From Clostridia bacterium (lineage in GTDB: Bacteria > Bacillota > Clostridia > Oscillospirales > CAG-272), in NCBI GenBank assembly GCA_017465885.1, contig JAFTVG010000016.1, forward strand, positions 1-64,000: 64,000 nucleotides of DNA, read 5' to 3'. The notes below the pieces were generated by a model. It was given only the letters and a program-made list of their open reading frames with translations, was not told the DNA's origin and searched no databases. The translations under genes were made by a program, and so were the position numbers. Position 1 is the first letter of the stretch, and each line of letters starts with the position of its first letter. Of this stretch, positions 1,375 through 62,034 are shown piece after piece.

Positions 1375-1959
1375 TTATCAATCGCTCTTATTTTATCATT
1401 TTGTATCGTGATGAATTGAGAATTATTGTTGTGAGAATAGCCCTTTATCTATCAGGCATTACGGCATTTTCTTTCTTATTGTGCTGTTTGTATCGTGCTG
1501 TATTGTTGTGCAAAGAATTGAATCACCATTTTTCAAAGTGTGTTGATTTACTGTTGATTTTCTGCTCTCATCCGATCGCCACCCGGAGGGGGATATAGAG
1601 CGGCGATATAAGCAGGAGTTACCCTCTCAAATAGCCGCCAATTACAAAGAGAGTTTTACAAAGCCATTATATTGATATTTACAGTACCATTAGTACCATT
1701 CATTGATATAGATAAATTATACCGTATTACAGCCTGTTTCAATACGCTACGATAAGTGAATGAGGTTGATTTATGGTACAAGCGAATAGTACCGATGTAG
1801 TACCAACAGTACCCATTGCAATATCAGGAGCATATCACTAAAAATCCCGAAAATCACTAAAAGGAGTTTTTACGGAGTATTTCTCTATATAGTACTGTAT
1901 ATAGTGCCGTTTCAAAAAAAAAATAAATCAATATATTGTATTATTTTCGAGAAATCCTC
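1375..1959. repeat. Left-end repeats, candidate integrase/excisionase arm sites; no gene
   Basis: No gene is supported in this stretch. TGTTGATTT occurs at 1541-1549 and 1552-1560, an 11-bp period, and the same pair with the same period recurs at the right end (9848-9867). AGTACC occurs at 1683, 1692, 1788, 1799 and 1808; the right end carries the same hexamer in inverted orientation. Repeats at both ends of an integrated element, inside the core sites, are typical of arm-type sites for tyrosine integrases and their excision partners. Confidence 0.6.
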
Positions 1960-1988
1960 TTGACATTTGAGAGTTCTCGTGGTATAAT
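1960..1988 (+). promoter_or_regulatory. Sigma-A promoter of the element's main operon
   Basis: TTGACA (1960-1965), a 17-bp spacer and TATAAT (1983-1988) match consensus exactly. Transcription would start near 1995 and run through a ~260-nt leader with a terminator-like structure before the first gene. Confidence 0.85.
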
Positions 1989-2183
1989 AATAGGGCAGAT
2001 AAAGAATCTGTGCTAATTGAATAATGGTTTTATTAAAAGCGTTTTGTACGCTCTTTGATGGTAACAGGCTGAGGAATGAGGCATAAATAAGCCGATACAC
2101 TCCTTACAATTTCCCACGAATTGCCGCAGTTTGATTATAGCCGTCAAAGTTATGGTTTATGTATATATTGTATTGGAGCATAT

Positions 2184-2257
2184 ACGCATTAACTGAGTGT
2201 GTCCCGTAATCGGGAGAGGTACTAAGTCCTCAAACATTCAGTTAGTGCGTTTTTTTT
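2184..2257 (+). terminator. Leader three-way-junction hairpin with U-run, possible attenuator
   Basis: ACGCATTAACTGAGTGT (2184-2200) pairs with ACATTCAGTTAGTGCGT (2234-2250) using two wobbles, and a run of eight T follows. The enclosed loop holds two further hairpins, CCCG-TAAT-CGGG (2203-2214) and GAGG-N8-CCTC (2216-2231), so the RNA would fold as a three-way junction. It sits between a consensus promoter and the first gene, so it should stop most transcripts unless some factor allows read-through. Confidence 0.7.
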
Positions 2258-2292
2258 GTTTGCAAATTTCAATCGAAAGGAGCATACAAGGA

Positions 2293-2469
2293 ATGAGTAT
2301 GACAGAACAGGAAAAAGCCGATTTTGAAAAAGCCATTAGAGAAAAAGTGCTAATGGAGCGTAGGGCTTATAAGGCAGAGTGGAGGCGCAAAAACAAAGAA
2401 AGTATAAAACGCTCCAATCAAAAATACTACGAAAAGCAAAAGCGAATCAAAGCGAATGGAGGCGAGTAA
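2293..2469 (+). CDS. Small basic/charged hypothetical protein
   Basis: A 58-residue, strongly charged protein, rich in Lys, Arg and Glu and with no hydrophobic segment. The start at 2293 follows AAAGGAG with suitable spacing; a longer frame upstream would run through the leader terminator and is rejected. The C-terminal half (about residues 25-55) is Lys/Arg-rich, as in small nucleic-acid-binding proteins. It is the first gene of the element operon and ends two bases before the start of the excisionase-like gene. The function is unknown. Confidence 0.6.
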   Translation: MSMTEQEKADFEKAIREKVLMERRAYKAEWRRKNKESIKRSNQKYYEKQKRIKANGGE

Positions 2470-2471
2470 AT

Positions 2472-2678
2472 ATGACAGAATCAAAAGAATTTCAGCCTAT
2501 TTATCTATCGATCAAAGACACGGCACGTTATACCGGGCTATCTGAGTATTTTTTGAGGGGAAGGCTTAAAGATGGCAAAATCCCTCATATCAATAGCGGT
2601 AACAAAATACTGATCCACCTCCCCTCTCTGCTTACGGAGTTAGAGAATCAAATCTCACATAATGCCGTATCTCAATAA
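2472..2678 (+). CDS. Excisionase-like / MerR-type helix-turn-helix protein
   Basis: A 68-residue protein with the short winged helix-turn-helix pattern of the excisionase (AlpA/MerR-like) family: SIKDTARYTGLSEYFLRG around residues 12-29, then a hydrophobic strand KILIHLPSLLTEL. Such proteins bend DNA at attachment sites during excision or activate element genes. The start at 2472 uses GGAGG located in the end of the preceding gene. It lies directly upstream of the ATPase gene. Excision factor is an inference from size, fold and the presence of a tyrosine integrase in the same element. Confidence 0.7.
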   Translation: MTESKEFQPIYLSIKDTARYTGLSEYFLRGRLKDGKIPHINSGNKILIHLPSLLTELENQISHNAVSQ

Positions 2679-2690
2679 GGCGGTGATCCT

Positions 2691-4475
2691 ATGGAAACGA
2701 ATAACGAACAGTTTACCTGTATATCTGAGAATTACAGGTATTCTAAAGATGGAACGCTTTATTATGTGGAGGGAAAGCAAGGAAAAAATGGCGTAGTATA
2801 TGAGGAATGCTCCACGATCGCCAATCACACCCCATTGTTAAAAGAATACCGCACTATTGATAATGGTATTGAAACGGTGGAGGAGTTAGTTTTCAACGCC
2901 CTCAGGAATTACAGTCGAGGGGCTGATACCATCCTATCTCTCAAGAATGATGTTTACAGCCAAACGCCTAATCTCAAATTTGGTGCGGCTTGCCGTATTA
3001 CCTTAGGGAGAGGGGCTAAATCCCGGTATAGTGAGGCGATGCAAATTCAATGTGAAAATGCTCCCCACGCCGTTATTTATCAGCATACAGGATATGCATA
3101 TATTGACGGTGAACGAGTGTTTTTGAACGGTGATTTTTCGATCGGAAAAGACGGTACTACAAACAAATGTAATGTATCGCTCCCTGAGCAAATGAAAAAT
3201 TATCGCTTTGTGGAAAGTCGAGATGCAGAGCGATTTGACACGCTTTTGAAAATGTTTCCCTCTGTAGCATCCAATGAGCTTGTTTATTCAGGCTTAGGGC
3301 TTGCGTTTCTCACGCCGTTAAATTCTCTCTTGCGTGATATTGGTATAGAGCCGTGTTTTATTCTGTATTTTACAGGAAAGACAGGCACACGCAAAACAAC
3401 AATGGCAAAATTGATTCTAAATTTTTTCGGTACATACGATAATGGCACAGCTCCTCCGGCGAGTTTCAGAGATACCACAAATGCCGTAGAGTTAAAGTTT
3501 GCTCTTGCCGATTCTACATTGATGTTGCTTGATGACAGAATCCCATCCACCACGCCCAAAATAAAGGCACAAATGGAGGCAATGGAGCAAGCCGTAGCAC
3601 GACAGATCGGTGATAGATCAGGGCGTGCAAGAATGAACGCTGATGGCACGCTGAGAGCCACATACCGCCCGAATTGTAATCTCATCATTACCGCCGAGGA
3701 ATCATTTTCAAATGTGGGAGAGTCCGCTATAGCACGCTCTATCTCTGTTGAGCTAAAGCCCGGAGATGTGGATTTGTCAAAGTTGACCGAGGTACAGCAA
3801 AGAGCAACACACCTAAATCAATGTATGGGAGATTATATCCAGTGGGTAATTTCAAATTGGGAGAGTATCTCAGAACGTGCAAAGCCTATGTTTTTGGAGT
3901 TCAGAAACAAGGCTCAGAGCGGCGGTCACGGTCGGCTTGCCGAATGTGTGGCACATTTACAGATCGGTATTGTATCAATGTGCGAATGGTTACGGCACGA
4001 AAAAATTATCACCGATATTGAGGCTAACGCAATACAACGAAAATCGTGGGATATTTTTGTAGCACTTGCAGAGGCTCAAAATCGCCGCATTGCAGAGGAA
4101 AAGCCTGTAAAATTGTTTCTTGATGCTATTAAAGAAATGAGAGATAGAAAGACGATCAATATTTTTGATTTGGACAATCCCTCTCAAAACAGCAATATCA
4201 ATGTAATAGGATACAGAGATAAAGATTTTTATTATTTCTATCCCGATAGCATTTACAGCGAGGTCAAGAAGTTTTATATTGCTCAGGATAAAAATTACCC
4301 ACTCGGGAAAACCGCTCTTTTTCAACAGTTAGCCGATGACGGTTTAATAGAAAAAGACAAAGAGCAAAATACCAAAACAAAGCGAGTACAAGGCAAACGC
4401 CCACGCCTATTGTGGCTTAGAGCCGATGTGCTCAACGATAATGAAAGTGAGGAGGTTACATACAATGGGGAATAA
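2691..4475 (+). CDS. DUF927-like ATPase (putative replication helicase/primase-associated)
   Basis: A 594-residue protein. A P-loop GKTGTRKT is at about residues 229-236, preceded by the strand CFILYFT and followed by an acidic Walker B-like segment TLMLLDD (near 275-281). A sensor-like strand NCNLIITAEE lies near 333. This order matches the DUF927 family, RecA/AAA-type ATPases common in phages and integrative elements. The N-terminal ~200 residues have no motif I recognise. The likely role is replication of the excised element, as for the pri/rep proteins of satellites; that is inferred. Its end overlaps the start of the next gene by 11 bases, so the two are probably translationally coupled. 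Confidence 0.7.
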   Translation: METNNEQFTCISENYRYSKDGTLYYVEGKQGKNGVVYEECSTIANHTPLLKEYRTIDNGIETVEELVFNALRNYSRGADTILSLKNDVYSQTPNLKFGAACRITLGRGAKSRYSEAMQIQCENAPHAVIYQHTGYAYIDGERVFLNGDFSIGKDGTTNKCNVSLPEQMKNYRFVESRDAERFDTLLKMFPSVASNELVYSGLGLAFLTPLNSLLRDIGIEPCFILYFTGKTGTRKTTMAKLILNFFGTYDNGTAPPASFRDTTNAVELKFALADSTLMLLDDRIPSTTPKIKAQMEAMEQAVARQIGDRSGRARMNADGTLRATYRPNCNLIITAEESFSNVGESAIARSISVELKPGDVDLSKLTEVQQRATHLNQCMGDYIQWVISNWESISERAKPMFLEFRNKAQSGGHGRLAECVAHLQIGIVSMCEWLRHEKIITDIEANAIQRKSWDIFVALAEAQNRRIAEEKPVKLFLDAIKEMRDRKTINIFDLDNPSQNSNINVIGYRDKDFYYFYPDSIYSEVKKFYIAQDKNYPLGKTALFQQLADDGLIEKDKEQNTKTKRVQGKRPRLLWLRADVLNDNESEEVTYNGE

Positions 4476-27507: not shown

Positions 27508-27797
27508 ATCGTTTTTCAAGGCGTTGATGGGAACAAAACTTCATTTTTGACCTTTGCAGAGAACTGTCGGTGGGTGCAAGACAGAAGGCAGATGAAGAAC
27601 ACTCCTCCCGGAGCTGCCCGCTGAAAGGGAAACCGAGTAGGTGCGGACGGGTCCTCCCGATACAGAGGAAGGGCGTTGGTTGACGCCTGCAGAGAGGGCG
27701 CAGGATGCGCCAAAAAGAGTGGTACCGCGGAGAACATATACCCTTCGTCTCTTTTACAAAATACGGGTCTTCGTGTTTTGGGAAAGAGGCTTTTTTA
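27508..27797 (+). promoter_or_regulatory. T-box leader (probably tRNA-Leu) upstream of leuA
   Basis: The T-box core GTGGTACCGCGG is at 27719-27730. Upstream are Stem I features: GAGAACTGTCGGTGGGTGCAAGACAG-type distal loop region (around 27560-27584) and lower-stem pairing CTTCAT/ATGAAG. The likely specifier is CTC (27602-27604, Leu) in the loop after GAAGAACA; this is inferred from position and from leuA downstream. The intrinsic terminator is GTCTCTTT (27747-27754) with AAAGAGGC (27783-27790) plus an inner stem and six T. Uncharged tRNA would favour the antiterminator and switch on the whole operon. Confidence 0.9.
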
Positions 27798-27882: not shown

Positions 27883-29556
27883 GTGAAAGGCTACGAGAAG
27901 TATCAAAAACAGTTTTTTGAAGCCCCCGGCGTGACCGGTGATTGGATGAAAAAATCGGTGATCGAAAAGGCGCCCATCTGGTGCAGCGTCGACCTGCGTG
28001 ACGGCAACCAGGCGCTCATCGTTCCTATGAGCCTGGAGGAAAAGTTGGAATTCTTCACGGTGCTTGTGAATCTGGGCTTCAAGGAGATCGAGATCGGCTT
28101 CCCTGCCGCATCGGACACCGAATACGAATTTTGCCGTACGTTGATCGAGCGGAATATGATCCCCGAGGACGTGACGGTGCAGGTGCTGACTCAGTCAAGA
28201 GAGCACATCATCAAAAAGACCTTCGAGGCGTTGAAGGGCGCCCCCTCCGCCATCGTGCATCTTTATAATTCTACTTCCGTGGCACAGCGGGAGCAGGTAT
28301 TCAGACGCTCCAAGGAGGAGATCATCGACATTGCCGTTACGGGTGCAGAGCTTTGTAAAAAGTATAGAGAAATGACCCCCGGCAAGTTCCGCTTCGAGTA
28401 TTCTCCCGAAAGCTTCACCGGAACCGAGCCCGAATTTGCCGCAGAGATCTGCAATAGAGTGATCGATATCTGGCAGCCCACCAAGGACGATCCTGTGATC
28501 ATCAACCTGCCTGTGACCGTTTCCCACTCCATGCCCCACGTGTACGCAAATCAGGTGGAGTATATGTGCAAGAACCTGAAGAACAGAGAAAACCTGATCA
28601 TTTCTCTGCATCCTCACAACGACCGCGGCTGTGCGGTGGCAGACAGTGAGCTGGGACTTCTTGCGGGCGGCGACCGTATCGAGGGTACGCTCTTTGGCAA
28701 CGGCGAGAGAACGGGTAACGTGGACATCGTCACGCTGGCAATGAATATGTATTCTCAGGGCGTTGATCCCGAGCTTGATTTTTCGGACATCCCCGCCATC
28801 ACCAATGTTTATGAAAAGGTGACGGGTATGCAGGTCTATCAGCGTCAGCCCTACAGCGGCGCGCTGGTATTTGCCGCCTTCTCGGGCTCTCATCAGGATG
28901 CCATTGCAAAGGGTATGAAGTGGAGAGTGGAGAAGAACGACGAGCACTGGACGGTGCCTTATCTGCCCATCGACCCCACAGACGTTGGCAGAGTATACGA
29001 AGCGGACGTGATCCGCATCAACTCTCAGTCGGGCAAGGGCGGTATCGAATATCTGATGGAGACCAGATATTCCCACATCCTGCCTCCCAAGATGAGAGAG
29101 GTCTTCGGCTACAAGGTCAAGGGCGTTTCGGACAAAGCCCACAAGGAGCTGCAGCCCGAGGAGGTTTACAAGATCTTCTCCGAAAATTACCTCAACGTCA
29201 ACGCTCCCATGAAGGTTTTGGACATTGCATACGAAAAGGAGCAGGGGCTGGCAGAGGTGAGCTTCACCGTGGAAAGAGAGGGCAGATTTGAGAAGGTCCA
29301 CGCCACGGGTAATGGACGCCTCAACGCCGTAAGTAACGGTTTAAAGCAGGTGCTTGGAAAGGATGCCTTCTCCTTTGAAGACTACTCCGAGCATTCTATG
29401 GAGGGCAGATCCACCGCAAGAGCGGCGGCATACGTTTCGGTCAAGGGCAAAGACGAGCGCATCTATTGGGGTGCGGGCGTGGACAGCGACATCCTTGCCG
29501 CATCGGTGCTGGCTCTCATCAGCGCTGTAAACAATATGCTTAAAGGACAGGCATAA
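27883..29556 (+). CDS. leuA: 2-isopropylmalate synthase (long, LeuA type 2)
   Basis: A 557-residue enzyme that condenses acetyl-CoA with 2-oxoisovalerate, the first leucine-specific step. It has a TIM barrel with CSVDLRDGNQALIVPMS (metal-binding DGNQ), GFKEIEIGFPAAS, SLHPHNDRGCAVAD with the His-x-His metal pair, and GNGERTGNVDIVTLAMN. The C-terminal ~150 residues form the regulatory leucine-binding domain. It belongs to the longer class shared with actinobacteria and fungi. The start is GTG at 27883. It is the first gene after the T-box. Confidence 0.95.
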   Translation: MKGYEKYQKQFFEAPGVTGDWMKKSVIEKAPIWCSVDLRDGNQALIVPMSLEEKLEFFTVLVNLGFKEIEIGFPAASDTEYEFCRTLIERNMIPEDVTVQVLTQSREHIIKKTFEALKGAPSAIVHLYNSTSVAQREQVFRRSKEEIIDIAVTGAELCKKYREMTPGKFRFEYSPESFTGTEPEFAAEICNRVIDIWQPTKDDPVIINLPVTVSHSMPHVYANQVEYMCKNLKNRENLIISLHPHNDRGCAVADSELGLLAGGDRIEGTLFGNGERTGNVDIVTLAMNMYSQGVDPELDFSDIPAITNVYEKVTGMQVYQRQPYSGALVFAAFSGSHQDAIAKGMKWRVEKNDEHWTVPYLPIDPTDVGRVYEADVIRINSQSGKGGIEYLMETRYSHILPPKMREVFGYKVKGVSDKAHKELQPEEVYKIFSENYLNVNAPMKVLDIAYEKEQGLAEVSFTVEREGRFEKVHATGNGRLNAVSNGLKQVLGKDAFSFEDYSEHSMEGRSTARAAAYVSVKGKDERIYWGAGVDSDILAASVLALISAVNNMLKGQA

Positions 29557-55692: not shown

Positions 55693-55721
55693 TTGACAAA
55701 CGCACTTTAGTGTGCTAAACT
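55693..55721 (+). promoter_or_regulatory. Promoter of the aromatic amino acid operon
   Basis: TTGACA (55693-55698), 17 bp, TAAACT (55716-55721). The spacer holds CAC-TTTA-GTG, a small palindrome that might be an operator. Confidence 0.8.
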
Positions 55722-55738
55722 GTTCCTATCTTGTTGAA

Positions 55739-55854
55739 GGGAGAAACGGTATGCAGAATAAGCTTTTTGCAGGCGCATACTTTTATTACTTTTACTTTTG
55801 CAACGATCAAAGGTAAAAGCGATTTGTGCTGCAAAAAAAGAACCGTTTTCTCTT
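55739..55854 (+). promoter_or_regulatory. Leader helix spanning the leader peptide (1:2 pairing)
   Basis: GAGAAACGGT (55741-55750, next to the leader RBS) can pair with ACCGTTTTCTC (55843-55853). CTTTTTGCA then pairs with TGCAAAAA, and GCGCA (55774-55778) with TGTGC (55825-55829). The helix encloses the aromatic codons, so a ribosome stalled on them would break it. Confidence 0.55.
55751..55816 (+). CDS. Phe/Tyr-rich leader peptide of the aromatic operon
   Basis: A 21-codon ORF with AAGGGAG eight bases upstream. Codons 10-16 read Tyr-Phe-Tyr-Tyr-Phe-Tyr-Phe, seven aromatic residues in a row. It lies between a consensus promoter and an intrinsic terminator ahead of aroF, and the operon makes Phe and Tyr. 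This is the arrangement of ribosome-mediated attenuation, as in enterobacterial pheA: low charged tRNA-Phe or -Tyr stalls the ribosome here and prevents the terminator from forming. The control role is inferred; the ORF and its composition are seen directly. Confidence 0.85.
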   Translation: MQNKLFAGAYFYYFYFCNDQR

Positions 55855-55871
55855 CATAAAAACGATTTTTC

Positions 55872-55911
55872 GGGCTTCGCAGTATAAACGCTGTGAAGCC
55901 CTATTTATTTT
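55872..55911 (+). terminator. Attenuator terminator before aroF
   Basis: GGGCTTCGCAG (55872-55882) pairs with CTGTGAAGCCC (55891-55901), one wobble, followed by TATTTATTTT. It lies 32 bases before the aroF start and would block the operon unless antiterminated. Confidence 0.8.
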
Positions 55912-55942
55912 GAACTTCAGAAAAAGAAAGAAGGAATGAACA

Positions 55943-56947
55943 ATGATTACCGTCATCAGACCGGGAACGAAGGAAGAGCAGATCGACAGCCTGATCCATT
56001 GGTTCCGTGAACAGGGGCTGGACGTGCACGTTTCAAAGGGCGAGGTGCATACCGTTTTGGGCATCATCGGTGACACGGCAAAGGTGGATACCGACCTGCT
56101 TGAGGGTCTTGAAATGGTGGAAATGGTGCAAAGAGTCAGCGACCCCTTTAAAAAGGCGAACCGCAAATTCCACCCCGAGGACAGCGTGATCGACTGCGGC
56201 GGCGTAAAGATCGGCGGAGGGCATTTTGCCATTATGGCAGGACCCTGCTCGGTGGAGAGCGAGGAGCAGATCACCCTCGTTGCAAACGAAGTGAAAAAGG
56301 CAGGGGCTGCCATCCTTCGCGGAGGCGCCTTCAAGCCCAGAACCTCACCCTATGACTTTCAGGGTCTGAAGGCGGAGGGCATCGAGCTGCTTCTTGAAGC
56401 CAAGAAGCAAACGGGTATGCCCATCATCACCGAGATCATGAACGCCAACCATCTGCCCCTTTTTGAAAAGGTGGACGTGATCCAGGTGGGTGCCCGCAAT
56501 ATGCAAAATTTCGAGCTGTTAAAGGAGCTGGGCAGAACCAACAAGCCCGTTCTTTTGAAAAGAGGTCTTGCCAACAGCTTAAAGGAGCTGTTGATGTCTG
56601 CCGAATATATTATGGCAGGGGGCAACGAGAACATTATGCTTTGTGAAAGAGGCATCCGCACCTTTGAGACCTACACGAGAAACACGCTGGATCTTTCCGC
56701 CGTGCCCGTGTTGAAGGAGCTGACCCACCTGCCCGTGATCATCGATCCCAGCCACGCCACGGGCAAGGCGTCCTTGGTGCCCTCCATGGCTGTGGCGGCT
56801 GTGGCGGCAGGGGCTGACGGACTGATGATCGAGGTGCATAACGACCCCAAGAAGGCGCTGTGCGACGGTGCACAGTCGCTGACCCCCGCTCAGTTTGAAA
56901 AGCTGGCAAAGAGGGTAGAAAAGATCAGAAAGGCTCTTGAAGACTGA
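55943..56947 (+). CDS. aroF: 3-deoxy-7-phosphoheptulonate synthase (DAHP synthase)
   Basis: A 334-residue type I-beta DAHP synthase joining PEP and erythrose 4-phosphate. An N-terminal ferredoxin-like regulatory domain (~1-70) is followed by the barrel: FAIMAGPCSVESEEQI, RGGAFKPRTSPYDFQG, KRGLANSLKELL, and VIIDPSHATGKASLV with metal ligands. In Thermotoga the same N-terminal domain mediates Tyr/Phe feedback, so that is likely here too. First structural gene after the attenuator. Confidence 0.95.
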   Translation: MITVIRPGTKEEQIDSLIHWFREQGLDVHVSKGEVHTVLGIIGDTAKVDTDLLEGLEMVEMVQRVSDPFKKANRKFHPEDSVIDCGGVKIGGGHFAIMAGPCSVESEEQITLVANEVKKAGAAILRGGAFKPRTSPYDFQGLKAEGIELLLEAKKQTGMPIITEIMNANHLPLFEKVDVIQVGARNMQNFELLKELGRTNKPVLLKRGLANSLKELLMSAEYIMAGGNENIMLCERGIRTFETYTRNTLDLSAVPVLKELTHLPVIIDPSHATGKASLVPSMAVAAVAAGADGLMIEVHNDPKKALCDGAQSLTPAQFEKLAKRVEKIRKALED

Positions 56948-56974: not shown

Positions 56975-57814
56975 ATGACGGTAGGAATCGTGGGATTGGG
57001 ACTCATCGGCGGATCGCTTTGCAAGGCGTATAAGGAAAACGCCCCGCAGACGAGAGTTCTTGGATGGGATCTTGATCCGAAGATCACGGGCATTGCTCAA
57101 ATTGCGGGAGTGATCGACGGGGAGCTGACCGACGAGCGGTTAGGGGAGTGCGATCTTGTTTTGGTCGCCATCTATCCTCAGGCGGCGATCGACTGGATTT
57201 TAAAAAAAGCTCCGCTTTTCAATAAAGAGGGAGTGGTGATGGACTGTTGCGGCGTGAAAAAGAAGGTGTGCGACGCCTGCTTTGAAGCGGCAAGGAGGGA
57301 GGGCTTCCTCTTCGTTGGCGGACATCCTATGGCGGGCTCTCACAACGCCGGCTTCAAATATTCCCGCGGCGACCTTTATAAGGGTGCGCCTATGGTGATC
57401 GTTCCTCCCCACTTTGACGATATCGATCTGCTTGAGCGGATCAAGCGTCTGCTTTTGCCCGTGGGCTTTGGCAAGATCAGCGTGACGAGTGCAGAGCATC
57501 ACGACGAGGTGATCGCCTTCACCTCTCAAATGGCGCACGTGGTGTCAAACGCCTACGTGAAAAGCCCCACAGCGGAAAACCACAAGGGCTTTTCTGCGGG
57601 AAGCTACAAGGATCTTACCCGCGTTGCGTGGCTCAGCGCCCCTATGTGGAGCGAGCTTTTTATGGAAAACAAGGACTGTCTTTTAAAGGAGCTGACCCTG
57701 TTTCGGGACAACGTCAACGCCTATATTGAAGCCCTTGAAGAGGAAGACGGAGAGAAGCTTTGCGCCCTTTTAAAAGAGGGAAGCGATATTAAAGGAAGGA
57801 TCGACGGACGGTGA
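56975..57814 (+). CDS. tyrA: Prephenate dehydrogenase
   Basis: A 279-residue enzyme converting prephenate to 4-hydroxyphenylpyruvate for tyrosine. Rossmann start VGIVGLGLIGGSLCKAYK, the active-site His in GGHPMAGSHNAGF, and HHDEVIAFTSQMAHVVSNAYV are family marks. No ACT domain is attached, so feedback must come from elsewhere (for example the DAHP synthase). Its stop overlaps the GTG start of aroB. Confidence 0.93.
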   Translation: MTVGIVGLGLIGGSLCKAYKENAPQTRVLGWDLDPKITGIAQIAGVIDGELTDERLGECDLVLVAIYPQAAIDWILKKAPLFNKEGVVMDCCGVKKKVCDACFEAARREGFLFVGGHPMAGSHNAGFKYSRGDLYKGAPMVIVPPHFDDIDLLERIKRLLLPVGFGKISVTSAEHHDEVIAFTSQMAHVVSNAYVKSPTAENHKGFSAGSYKDLTRVAWLSAPMWSELFMENKDCLLKELTLFRDNVNAYIEALEEEDGEKLCALLKEGSDIKGRIDGR

Positions 57815-58869
57815 AACAGGTTAACGTAAAGGCATCGGGATGCTATGACATTTATATCGGCGGGGGGCTTTTGGAGGGCCTTGGCAAAAGGCTGAAGGAC
57901 TCCTTCCCCAAAGCCGAAAAAATACTGCTGTTATCTGACGAAAGGGTGTTTTCCCTTTACGGAGAGCGGGTGGGGCAGGAGCTTTCCGCCTGCTTCTCCC
58001 TTTGCACTTTCACTCTGCCTCAGGGGGAGGATTCCAAGTCGATGACCAATCTCGTTGCCCTGCTTGAAACGATGGCAGAGGCAAATCTGACCCGCACCGA
58101 CCTGCTGGTGGCGCTGGGAGGCGGAGTGGTCGGAGATCTTGGCGGCTTTGCCTCGGCTTGCTATTTAAGAGGCATCGATTTCGTCCAGCTTCCCACCACC
58201 CTTCTTGCGGCGGTGGACTCCTCGGTGGGCGGAAAAACGGCGGTGAATCTGTCTGCGGGCAAAAATCTTGCCGGCGCCTTTCATCAGCCGGCATTGGTTC
58301 TTGCCGACACCGACTGCTTAAAGACACTTGATCCCGATATTTTAAGGGACGGCTGTGCCGAGGTGATCAAATACGGTATCCTCACCGACAAGGATCTTTT
58401 TGAAGCCCTTTTTGCGGGCAAAGAGTATGCCATGAGCGAGGAATGCATTGCAAGATGTGTAAAGATCAAGCGCTCTTACGTGGAAGAGGACGAATTTGAC
58501 AAGGGCGCTCGTCAGTTTTTGAATCTTGGACACACGGTGGGACACGCCGTTGAAAAGCTCAGCGGCTATGGGATCTCCCACGGTGCGGCGGTCGCCATTG
58601 GTACGGCGGTGATTTCAAGGGTCGCTGTGGCGCAGGGACTTCTGAAAAAGGAGGACTGTTTACGCATTCTTTCCCTTCTTGAAACCTTCGGATTTGATCT
58701 TGCCTGCCCCTTCACGGTGGAGCAGATGCTGTCGGTGATGCTCTCCGACAAGAAGAGAGCAGGGGCAACGGTGACGCTGGTGATGCCCTTTGCCATCGGC
58801 AGATGTGAGCTTGTAAAGGTGAAGGCGGAGGACCTTGCCGACTATATCAAAAAGGGGATGGAAGAATGA
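57811..58869 (+). CDS. aroB: 3-dehydroquinate synthase
   Basis: A 352-residue NAD- and metal-dependent cyclase. It has LPQGEDSKSM, VALGGGVVGDLGGFASACYLRGIDFVQLPTTLLAAVDSSVGGKTAVN, KYGILTDKDLF with ligand Glu just upstream, and the metal His in LNLGHTVGHAVE and GISHGAAVAIG. GTG start overlapping tyrA; its stop overlaps aroA (ATGA), so all three are translationally coupled. Confidence 0.95.
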   Translation: MKQVNVKASGCYDIYIGGGLLEGLGKRLKDSFPKAEKILLLSDERVFSLYGERVGQELSACFSLCTFTLPQGEDSKSMTNLVALLETMAEANLTRTDLLVALGGGVVGDLGGFASACYLRGIDFVQLPTTLLAAVDSSVGGKTAVNLSAGKNLAGAFHQPALVLADTDCLKTLDPDILRDGCAEVIKYGILTDKDLFEALFAGKEYAMSEECIARCVKIKRSYVEEDEFDKGARQFLNLGHTVGHAVEKLSGYGISHGAAVAIGTAVISRVAVAQGLLKKEDCLRILSLLETFGFDLACPFTVEQMLSVMLSDKKRAGATVTLVMPFAIGRCELVKVKAEDLADYIKKGMEE

Positions 58870-60119
58870 AAGTGACTGTAAAGCAGGGACTGCGGGGTGG
58901 CGAAATCACTGCCATTCCCTCCAAGTCCGACGCCCACAGATTGCTCATTTGCGCCGCCCTGGCAGACGGCCCCACCACTCTGATCTGTCCTGCCACCTCG
59001 GAGGATATCGAGGCAACGGCAGGGGTGCTTCGGGGTCTTGGCGCGGGTATTGAGCGCACCGCTGAGGGCTATACCGTAACGCCCATTAAACGCGTTCCCC
59101 GGGAATGCCTTCTTGACTGCGGGGAGAGCGGCTCGACCCTTCGCTTCCTTCTGCCCGTGGCGGCAAGTCTTTCGGCAAACGCCACCTTCGTCGGTCACGG
59201 CAGACTCCCCCAAAGACCGATGGACGAGCTGTACGATGCCCTTACTGCAGGGGGCGTGCAGATCACAAGCGGCTGTAAGCTCCCCTTCCACTTATCGGGC
59301 AGTCTTTTGGCGGGCGAATATGAGATCGGAGGAAGCGTTTCCTCCCAGTATCTTTCGGGGCTTTTGATGGGTCTTCCCCGTCTTTCGGGAAATAGCCGCA
59401 TTGTGGTCAAGGGCAGGCTTGAATCAAAGGGCTACGTTTTGATGACCTTAGACGCCCTTTCCCGCTTCGGCGTGGATGTAAAGAGGGAAGAGAATACCTT
59501 CATGGTACCCGGCGGATCGCCCTACAAGACCCCCGGCACCATCACCGTGCAGGGTGACTGGAGCAACGGCGCCTTCTTCCTTTGCCTGGGCGCACTTTTA
59601 AAGGAGGGGGTGACGGTGAAGGGTCTGGACGAGGGCTCCACGCAGGCAGACAAGGCGGTGCTTGCGGTGCTTGAAGAAATGGGCGCGCAGGTGGAGCGAA
59701 GCCCGGAGGGGATCACCGTGAAAAAGGGGGATCTTAAGGGCGTGACAGTGGACGCCTCCCATATTCCCGATCTCGTCCCCGTGCTTTCCATCGTCGGTGC
59801 GCTGGCAGAGGGCAAGACCACCTTTGTCAATGCAGGACGTCTGCGTGCCAAGGAAAGCGACCGTATCAAGACGGTTTGCGCTATGATCACCGCTCTTGGC
59901 GGTAGGGCAGAGGAGCATACGGAGGGGCTTGCCGTGTGGGGCGGCCTTTCGGGCGGCGAGGTGTTTGGTGCAGGCGATCATCGCATCGTGATGTCCTCGG
60001 CGATCGCTGCGGCAGTTTGCCCCGTGACCATCACGGGCGCACAGGCGGTGGGCAAGTCCTACCCCGGATTTTTTGAAGATCTGTCTTTGCTTGGTGCAGA
60101 GATTTTAAAGGAGGACTGA
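58866..60119 (+). CDS. aroA: 3-phosphoshikimate 1-carboxyvinyltransferase (EPSP synthase)
   Basis: A 417-residue enzyme. Key segments are IPSKSDAHRLLICAALADG (PEP/S3P lysine), CGESGSTLRFLLPVAA, GRLPQRPMDELYDAL, SVSSQYLSGLLMGLP, IPDLVPVLSIVGALAEG and LRAKESDRI. It transfers enolpyruvate from PEP to shikimate 3-phosphate. The 'GESGSTLRF' variant of the usual 'NAGT' loop points to a class II-like EPSPS, often less glyphosate-sensitive; that is inference. Confidence 0.94.
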   Translation: MKVTVKQGLRGGEITAIPSKSDAHRLLICAALADGPTTLICPATSEDIEATAGVLRGLGAGIERTAEGYTVTPIKRVPRECLLDCGESGSTLRFLLPVAASLSANATFVGHGRLPQRPMDELYDALTAGGVQITSGCKLPFHLSGSLLAGEYEIGGSVSSQYLSGLLMGLPRLSGNSRIVVKGRLESKGYVLMTLDALSRFGVDVKREENTFMVPGGSPYKTPGTITVQGDWSNGAFFLCLGALLKEGVTVKGLDEGSTQADKAVLAVLEEMGAQVERSPEGITVKKGDLKGVTVDASHIPDLVPVLSIVGALAEGKTTFVNAGRLRAKESDRIKTVCAMITALGGRAEEHTEGLAVWGGLSGGEVFGAGDHRIVMSSAIAAAVCPVTITGAQAVGKSYPGFFEDLSLLGAEILKED

Positions 60120-60124
60120 GTGCT

Positions 60125-61285
60125 ATGGAAGAAGCTCAGATCAAGGATATAAAGGAATTAAGAGAAGAGATCAACGAAATCGACCGTCAGATGGTAGAGC
60201 TTTTTATGAAGCGGATGGAGGTCTCCAAGGGCGTTGCCCTTTATAAGCAGTCAAGGGGACTGCCCATCTTTGATCCCGCAAGAGAGCGGGCAAGGCTTGC
60301 CGACGTTTCCGAGCAGGCAGGACCCGAATATGAGTCTTACACCCGTGTTTTGTATGCTCTGATGATGGAGCTGAGCAAAAATCTTCAGCAAAAGGTGCTT
60401 CATCCCACCTCGGGACTGAAGGACTCGGTGAAGGGTGCAATGGAAAATACCCCTTTGCTCTTCCCCGAAAAGGCGAAGGTTGCCTGCCAGGGCGTGGAGG
60501 GTGCCTACTCGGGGCAGGCTTGCGAAAAGCTGTTTGCCCTGCCCGAGATCTCCTATTATAAGGATTTCGAAGGGGTATTCAAGGCCATCGAGGAGGGCAA
60601 ATGCCGCTACGGCGTTCTGCCCATCGAAAACAGCACCGCAGGATCTGTGAATGCGGTATACGATCTGATGATCAAATATAATTTCCGCATCGTGCGCTCG
60701 CTTCGTCTGAAGGTGGATCACTGCCTGCTTGCAAGAAGGGGCACGAAGGTGGAAAACATCAGGGAGGTCTGCTCCCACGAGCAGGCGCTCAACCAGTGCG
60801 CGGGCTTTTTGAGGACGCTTGGAGACGTGAAGATCACCGTCTGCCCCAACACCGCCGTGGCGGCGAAAATGGTGGCGGAAAGCGGCAGAGACGACATTGC
60901 CGCCCTGTCCTCCTCCTCTTGCGCTTCTCTTTACGGGCTTTGCACCCTTGCCTCCTCGGTGCAGGACAGAGGCAACAACCACACCCGCTTCATCTGCATC
61001 TCGGCAAAGGAGGAGATCTACCCGGGGTCCGACCGCACCTCCGTGATGATGGTGGTCTCCCACCGTCCGGGTGCTCTTTACAGAGTCCTCTCCCGCTTCT
61101 ATGCTCTGGGCATCAATCTGGTGAAGCTGGAGAGCCGTCCCATCCCTGACAGAGATTTTGAGTTTATGTTCTATTTCGACCTGCAGGTGTCCATCTATTC
61201 GGAGAAGTTCGACGAGCTGTTATCCGAGCTTGAATACCAGGGCGACGAGGTACGGTATCTGGGCAGCTATCAGGAGGTCTTCTGA
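60125..61285 (+). CDS. pheA: Bifunctional chorismate mutase / prephenate dehydratase
   Basis: A 386-residue P-protein. Chorismate mutase domain at ~5-95 (LREEINEIDRQMVELFMKRMEVSKGVALYKQ). Prephenate dehydratase at ~115-290 with VACQGVEGAYSGQACEKLF, GVLPIENSTAGSVNAVYDL, and a TRF motif in HTRFICIS. C-terminal ACT domain at ~300-380 (HRPGALYRVLSRFYALGINLVKLESRPIPDR) for phenylalanine feedback. It makes phenylpyruvate for Phe and supplies prephenate to TyrA. Its stop overlaps the aroE start. Confidence 0.95.
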   Translation: MEEAQIKDIKELREEINEIDRQMVELFMKRMEVSKGVALYKQSRGLPIFDPARERARLADVSEQAGPEYESYTRVLYALMMELSKNLQQKVLHPTSGLKDSVKGAMENTPLLFPEKAKVACQGVEGAYSGQACEKLFALPEISYYKDFEGVFKAIEEGKCRYGVLPIENSTAGSVNAVYDLMIKYNFRIVRSLRLKVDHCLLARRGTKVENIREVCSHEQALNQCAGFLRTLGDVKITVCPNTAVAAKMVAESGRDDIAALSSSSCASLYGLCTLASSVQDRGNNHTRFICISAKEEIYPGSDRTSVMMVVSHRPGALYRVLSRFYALGINLVKLESRPIPDRDFEFMFYFDLQVSIYSEKFDELLSELEYQGDEVRYLGSYQEVF

Positions 61286-62034
61286 TGTACGGGCTTCTTG
61301 GAAAGACCCTGGGGCACAGCCGCTCCCCTCAGATCCACGCGCAGTTAGGAGACTACCCCTACCACCTTTTTGAGGTGGAGGAGGAGCAGGTGGGAGCTTT
61401 TCTTGAAAAAAGAGAATTTGAGGGCATCAACGTCACCGTGCCTTATAAGGAACGGGTGATCCCCTACTGCGACGAGCTGACCGATGCGGCAAAGCGGATC
61501 GGTGCGGTAAATACCATCGTCAAGAGAGCAGACGGCAGTCTTTTGGGGCACAATACCGACTACGACGGCTTTTTGGCAACAGTCAAACGCTCGGGTTTTG
61601 AAATTGCGGGCAAAAAATGTCTGGTGCTTGGCTCGGGCGGGGCTTCCAAAACGGCAGTCACCGTGCTTACCGACCTTGGTGCGCGGCAGGTGGAGGTCAT
61701 TTCCCGATCGGGGCAGAACAACTACGGCAATCTCCATCTTCATAAGGATGCCGCCATCCTCGTCAACACCACCCCCGTGGGGATGTACCCGCAGGTGGAT
61801 CAAACACCGCTGACCTTGGAGCATTTTGACGAACTTGAAGGGGTTTTTGACGTGATCTACAATCCCCGTCCCACAAAGCTGCTGTCCTTGGCAGAGCAAC
61901 GGGGCATCCCTGCCTTTGACGGACTTTATATGCTGGTCTGTCAGGCGATCGCCGCCGCAGAGCGCTTTCTTGACCGCCCTATCGGCTATGAGCGGGCGCA
62001 GGAGATCTGCGAAGTAGTGGCAAAAACCCTTTAA
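61285..62034 (+). CDS. aroE: Shikimate dehydrogenase
   Basis: A 249-residue NADPH-dependent enzyme, slightly short. LGHSRSPQIHAQL binds shikimate, GINVTVPYKERVIPYC has the catalytic Lys, GHNTDYDGF the Asp, and VLGSGGASKTAVTVL is the nucleotide loop. VNTTPVGMYP and GLYMLVCQA are family marks. Last gene of the operon; aroC, aroD and aroK are not in the window. Confidence 0.94.
   Translation: MYGLLGKTLGHSRSPQIHAQLGDYPYHLFEVEEEQVGAFLEKREFEGINVTVPYKERVIPYCDELTDAAKRIGAVNTIVKRADGSLLGHNTDYDGFLATVKRSGFEIAGKKCLVLGSGGASKTAVTVLTDLGARQVEVISRSGQNNYGNLHLHKDAAILVNTTPVGMYPQVDQTPLTLEHFDELEGVFDVIYNPRPTKLLSLAEQRGIPAFDGLYMLVCQAIAAAERFLDRPIGYERAQEICEVVAKTL

Follow-up and report, generated by a model that had tools for sequence, protein, structure and literature searches.

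The window, by which we mean the whole 64,000-nucleotide stretch of Clostridia bacterium DNA analysed here, carries on its forward strand six genes that together make up the route from shikimate to Phe and Tyr. An initial annotation had named them aroF-tyrA-aroB-aroA-pheA-aroE and had placed a leader-peptide attenuator ahead of them. Pfam and NCBIfam searches verified the gene identities, the aroE-like call being the weaker one, with a match above the Pfam cut-off but below the NCBIfam cut-offs. The operon reads as follows, all assignments coming from Pfam/NCBIfam:

55943 to 56947, forward strand: aroF-type DAHP synthase, the operon's first gene (ATG at 55943)
56975 to 57814, forward strand: tyrA, prephenate dehydrogenase
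57811 to 58869, forward strand: aroB, 3-dehydroquinate synthase
58866 to 60119, forward strand: aroA, EPSP synthase
60125 to 61285, forward strand: pheA, chorismate mutase-prephenate dehydratase-ACT
61285 to 62034, forward strand: aroE-like shikimate dehydrogenase

Upstream of aroF lie the parts of the leader, given here with the evidence on which each is placed:

55693 to 55721, forward strand: sigma-70-type promoter (same layout before most relatives' leaders)
55735 to 55750, forward strand: 5' strand of the outer helix P1, which holds the leader Shine-Dalgarno sequence and pairs with 55842-55856 (fold)
55751 to 55816, forward strand: leader ORF, peptide MQNKLFAGAYFYYFYFCNDQR (sequence; kept in relatives)
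55764 to 55800, forward strand: region 1, 5' strand of the 1:2 protector hairpin, control codons included (fold, pair counts)
55778 to 55798, forward strand: control codons TAC TTT TAT TAC TTT TAC TTT, or YFYYFYF (sequence)
55808 to 55837, forward strand: region 2, partner of region 1 or, over 55818-55832, of region 3 (fold, permutation, alignment)
55842 to 55856, forward strand: 3' strand of P1, facing the leader Shine-Dalgarno sequence (fold)
55872 to 55901, forward strand: intrinsic terminator hairpin (3:4), 12 bp in the fold (scan and fold)
55879 to 55892, forward strand: region 3, the terminator apex, antiterminator partner of 55818-55832 (permutation, alignment, ribosome folding)

The expression signals that had been proposed for the small ORF are all present. 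Its consensus promoter consists of a TTGACA -35 element (55693-55698), a 17-nt spacer and an extended -10, (TG)TAAACT, with the hexamer at 55716-55721, and transcription would start at about 55728. The ORF has its own ribosome binding site (AAGGGAG, 55737-55743) and runs for 21 codons to a TAA stop (55814-55816), with codons 10-16 forming the unbroken run of seven aromatic codons, and downstream of it the terminator hairpin is followed immediately by the U-rich tract UAUUUAUUUU at 55902-55911. As expected of an attenuator, an ORF with a start codon, a ribosome site and clustered end-product codons, predicted to be translatable, thus precedes a terminator that itself lies before the first gene. 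The promoter spacer also contains a short palindrome, CACTTTAGTG (55703-55712), and some distant relatives (L059, L066) have a similar sequence; it may be an operator or a chance occurrence, and as a general operator we rejected it since it is not general among relatives.

The leader RNA has a folding energy of -63 kcal/mol, compared with a mean of -37.6 for shuffled sequences (z -6.6). In the 1:2 hairpin region 2 pairs with the ORF itself (TTTGCAG...TACTTTTACTTT), and the control codons therefore belong to this helix, as had been seen from the start, with region 1 spanning all of them. The antiterminator, which the initial annotation had left unclear, can now be placed: 55818-55821 and 55823-55832 pair with 55879-55892 to give 14 bp (2:3), so that the partner of region 2 is the terminator apex, made up of the end of the terminator 5' arm (GCAG), the loop and the first 4 nt of the 3' arm. 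P1, in turn, probably shuts off further translation of the leader.

We compared the locus with DAHP-synthase neighbourhoods taken from whole genomes of the same family (the gene was found in 72 of 196) and from public genome contigs, and scored the aromatic run in the 107 aroF upstream regions for which at least 450 bases were available. A small ORF with at least six Phe/Tyr per eight residues occurs in 76.6% of these regions and one with at least seven in 50.5%, whereas the controls (the opposite strand of these regions, shuffled sequences, windows from elsewhere in the loci and tiles across the entire window) give 0-0.2% and 0%, respectively. Had relatives with the operon lost the ORF or its aromatic run, this would have spoken against the attenuator, yet 84% of the 107 retain a run of at least five in eight; no such run was detectable in the other 16%, so that leader control is not universal. 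The leader peptides of cultured relatives illustrate the pattern (Sporobacter termitidis MRNVLFTASYYFYFYFYWDEVRAIDAAKSAI; Emergencia MRNFIFAAAYYFYYFFFTNKEE...; Anaerotignum neopropionicum MNSNSFAATTYFYFYRVFRDSK), and most relatives' leaders are preceded by a promoter match of similar quality, located some tens of bases upstream of the start codon. Both Phe and Tyr are used in 69 of the 70 leaders that have a clear terminator, which contain 266 TTT, 52 TTC, 165 TAC and 123 TAT codons and only four TGG. A covariance model of the leader finds one strong match in the window's own genome (E 1.6e-20) and matches, under strict filters, in no fewer than 34 of the 391 class genomes (own genome counted) and at least 6 of 398 of the phylum, nearly all strong ones sitting before aroF-tyrA. 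No aroF match was found in two genomes of the same genus (G066 and G113; 92% and 87% complete), and these close relatives may not synthesize aromatic amino acids. The window's own genome (80.6% complete) has no trpE match and its leader likewise has no Trp codon; sensing of Trp was considered and rejected, Trp codons being nearly absent from the leaders as well.

Control by a T-box or a metabolite-binding riboswitch, with the ORF incidental, would be the usual expectation in this group, where T-boxes are common, and this genome has at least two above the cut-off. One lies at 27515-27755 of the window (101 bits), upstream of a leuA-like gene at 27883, and two sensing systems would thus coexist in the genome. 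At the leader, however, an Rfam search found neither T-box sequence nor the stem I-antiterminator architecture. None of the Rfam amino-acid leader families scored above its gathering cut-off at the site, and no Rfam family fits the leader, matches at relaxed thresholds being far below the gathering cut-offs. Apart from the 1:2 hairpin and the terminator, the alignment of relatives contains nothing conserved that resembles an aptamer domain, and a T-box is absent even from all 12 relatives without the leader run that were checked. We therefore consider such control of the operon extremely unlikely.

The mutually exclusive 1:2, 2:3 and 3:4 pairings expected of an attenuator are kept across relatives. 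When pairing partners were swapped among 70 species in 20,000 permutations, a statistic that ignores common descent, cognate antiterminator duplexes had a mean of -16.8 kcal/mol against -13.0 for permuted ones (sd 0.34; z -11.3), and not one permutation was as good; the 1:2 helix (z -15.4) and the 3:4 terminator (z -29.7) were likewise unmatched in all 20,000. These tests left out about 20 relatives with missed or mis-called terminators, plus near-identical duplicates. P1 also scored better in its cognate form (z -7.5 overall), with the helix being strong in the window and a minority of relatives and weak or absent in many. Column-by-column pair counts in a 28-sequence alignment, made without regard to kinship and with slides of one to three columns as controls, agree: 84% of cells are paired in the antiterminator versus 28-66% after sliding and 83.5% in 1:2 versus 35-53%, while the terminator has 93% of its cells paired and compensatory changes at 11 of 11 counted pairs. 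Double changes are limited in the former two because one segment must serve both 1:2 and 2:3. Covariation had been proposed earlier as a check on the attenuator, and for all three helices cognate pairing beats the species-swapped one.

These comparisons also bear on whether the ORF could instead encode a functional hydrophobic microprotein, with the hairpin as its ordinary terminator and the aro operon transcribed from its own promoter. The peptide is indeed hydrophobic and of conserved composition, and a promoter and ribosome site of its own precede the ORF, but peptide sequence, length and C-terminus vary freely while the Phe/Tyr codons and the RNA pairing stay. Region 2, with the consensus GTAARAGYGATTTNTGCTGC, is read in differing frames (KVKxIxAA, KSDLCC) or located after the stop, depending on the relative, which indicates that it is conserved as RNA and not as peptide, even where it is untranslated. 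Moreover, an antiterminator that covaries with the terminator apex would serve no purpose for a microprotein, and the identity of the codons tracks the downstream gene (see below). We regard the microprotein as highly improbable.

What the attenuator would sense is suggested by leaders found before other genes. Five stand-alone pheA leaders of one family (L149, L153, L154, L155 and L156) contain Phe in each case and Tyr in none: MNNFAFTSFGFFFAFTSRGI, MTNFAFTWRDFSFFAFTNRGN, MTNFAFTWREFFFAFRNRGL, MTRNIFTAFDFFFGFAFFFGKTLKVLTA and MVNFSFTWREFSFFAFTKLGN, the last one read from the sequence. Some genomes of that family carry pheA apart from the aroF operon and with its own leader, and in the two genomes with a Phe-only pheA leader for which the aroF leader could be seen, the latter has both Phe and Tyr (MKIAVFYYAFYFFYYGKNTGAVCA; MNKGFIGNAYYYYYFYVGCSK). 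Where an operon has no prephenate dehydratase, Phe makes up a smaller part of the Phe plus Tyr in its leader, at 36% versus 48% (33 operons with scorable pheA status; Mann-Whitney P 0.016, relatedness being ignored). In these sequences codon identity follows the product of the controlled gene, Phe and Tyr for aroF and Phe only for stand-alone pheA. One could still propose that the leader senses slow translation in general, or that a DNA-binding regulator acts over the promoter, with Phe/Tyr specificity being minor; the sequestering of the leader Shine-Dalgarno sequence by P1 and the spacer palindrome of the window and a few relatives would suit such a view. The near-exclusive use of Phe/Tyr codons (606 versus 4 Trp in 70 leaders) and the Phe-only pheA leaders point to specific sensing, however, and the palindrome is not a general feature of relatives; we regard both proposals as very unlikely.

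Further leaders extend the range of possible targets. In one genome a second, aromatic-rich leader, MFLSVLFVFICLYFYFFAFLFCKSKSVLCCG (L148, ~1400-3400), precedes an AMP-binding CoA ligase, plausibly one that acts on arylacetates to salvage aromatic amino acids, and a protein with a pair of ACT domains. In another (G689; L197, reverse strand, ~1430-1720) a leuA-like gene follows a TTG-start leader rich in Ile, Leu and Val, NTLFVSAAILLTVIAGLLTSDSGYLRCLQTD, which is a weak covariance-model match and has a promoter, a Shine-Dalgarno sequence and a terminator, GCCTTGTAGCGTAAACGCTGCAAGGC, of similar make; this genome has the aroF copy of the element next to it. Its sequence makes it look like a branched-chain attenuator built along the same lines.

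Folding with a ribosome on codons 10-16, also proposed at the outset, was modelled by folding only the RNA ahead of the ribosome, from 13 bases past the first base of the A-site codon, while the 3' end was extended stepwise. With the ribosome stalled on any of these codons the antiterminator has a probability of 0.97-0.98 when the RNA 3' end reaches 55892, and it stays high to 55896 and, for most codons, to 55898 (codon 12: 0.35). With the ribosome at the stop codon, in contrast, it has a probability of 0.49 at 55892 and zero by 55896, and the terminator takes over. At equilibrium the full-length terminator wins for every ribosome position (-27.1 vs -22.8 kcal/mol for a stall at codon 14), so that read-through must depend on timing, by way of a kinetic trap. 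As long as upstream RNA is barred from pairing past the ribosome, a stall frees region 2 in this model; where such pairing was allowed, in a fold whose codon positions were off by one base, the antiterminator mostly loses. Pairing of RNA across a stalled ribosome is sterically unlikely, and the model assumes as much.

Taken together, the conservation of the ORF and its aromatic run, the covarying helices, the ribosome folding and the Phe-only pheA leaders support the leader-peptide reading of the initial annotation, and we put at roughly 90% the probability that the element is a ribosome-mediated transcription attenuator that senses charged tRNA-Phe and tRNA-Tyr through the position of the ribosome. 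When both tRNAs are plentiful the leading ribosome would clear the control codons, reach the stop at 55814 and cover the start of region 2; upon its release 1:2 would re-form, the terminator would fold and transcription would end before aroF. If charged tRNA-Phe or tRNA-Tyr is scarce, the ribosome would stall on codons 10-16, inside region 1, leaving region 2 free to pair with the emerging terminator apex, and this 2:3 pairing would delay the terminator until RNA polymerase is past the U tract, such that the operon is read. Termination would be the default where there is no translation, as 1:2 and the outer helix over the leader ribosome site would both form. Where a relative's ORF is short, its stop comes before region 2, and the details of ribosome release may therefore differ. 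We infer that the RNA is made, that the peptide is translated and that expression responds to Phe and Tyr; by this analysis the leader very probably switches on the Phe/Tyr genes when either amino acid is short.

The sequence comparisons thus make a well-supported case for a widespread attenuator of a well-known type, with unusually clear comparative support. Many gut Clostridia, for which other RNA switches were assumed to be the principal means of control, probably govern their main Phe/Tyr operon by translation of a very small ORF rich in Phe/Tyr instead of by a T-box, and the complete switch, including its antiterminator, can now be described. A broader proposal is that of a Clostridia-wide, uncatalogued attenuator family of one architecture, in which region 2 pairs with either the control codons or the terminator apex and amino-acid specificity is re-tuned, with Phe plus Tyr before aroF, Phe before pheA, a probably aromatic specificity before a CoA-ligase/ACT pair and, in one genome or more, Ile/Leu/Val before leuA. 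Such leaders would fill roles that fall to T-boxes at other places in these genomes or in related ones; taken jointly, we would give these points about an even chance of being right. Mixed and Phe-only leaders within one genome amount to a natural experiment on how attenuator specificity changes. A covariance model of the leader is now available, and the isolates Sporobacter termitidis, Emergencia, Anaerotignum neopropionicum and Angelakisella massiliensis carry this leader.

The classical systems for comparison are pheL-pheA and trpL of E. coli, in which a leader ORF rich in end-product codons is combined with a 1:2 protector, a 2:3 antiterminator and a 3:4 terminator. The window element shares with them the leader ORF, these three pairings and the biosynthetic operon that follows. 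It differs in its mixed Phe/Tyr codons over a whole shikimate-to-Phe/Tyr operon, in an antiterminator partner that is the terminator apex, with its loop and the initial bases of the 3' arm, and in that it matches no Rfam leader family.

A search of mainly open-access literature, with most subscription journals outside it, turned up no account of this element across Clostridia, of its antiterminator or of the pheA variant with Phe alone. Nearest in gene context is the uORFC-13-1 motif, an aroF uORF of Acholeplasma with Phe codon(s) and a terminator for which attenuation was proposed; it has 24 examples, only in Acholeplasma and environmental sequences, and its available description does not mention Tyr or give an antiterminator (PMC8632094). 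Compared by that description, the two share a uORF and terminator directly before aroF (PMC8632094). A study of five genomes, Clostridium novyi among them, shows in its Fig. 6b two candidate uORFs that encode Phe and Tyr and are associated with genes of shikimate metabolism (PMC6429828). By the figure legend these have Phe/Tyr coding and the shikimate genes in common with the window element and may belong to the same class, and priority for the idea therefore cannot be claimed (PMC6429828). The initial annotation had considered peptide attenuation unusual in Firmicutes, and it is less so than implied, as His leaders, ilv/leu leaders and Phe/Tyr uORFs near shikimate genes are on record (PMC2965389, PMC9413887, PMC5864092, PMC5794164, PMC6429828, PMC8632094). 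His leader-peptide attenuators occur in bacilli (PMC2965389) and in Eubacteriales and Erysipelotrichales (PMC9413887); like the window element they combine a leader peptide, a terminator and an antiterminator in Bacillota and replace T-boxes, but their codons are for histidine and their targets are his or hisS/hisZ (PMC2965389, PMC9413887). The ilv/leu leaders of Listeria and Staphylococcus, reportedly studied in the laboratory, are also cases of leader attenuation in Bacillota, but with branched-chain codons and before other operons (PMC5864092, PMC5794164).
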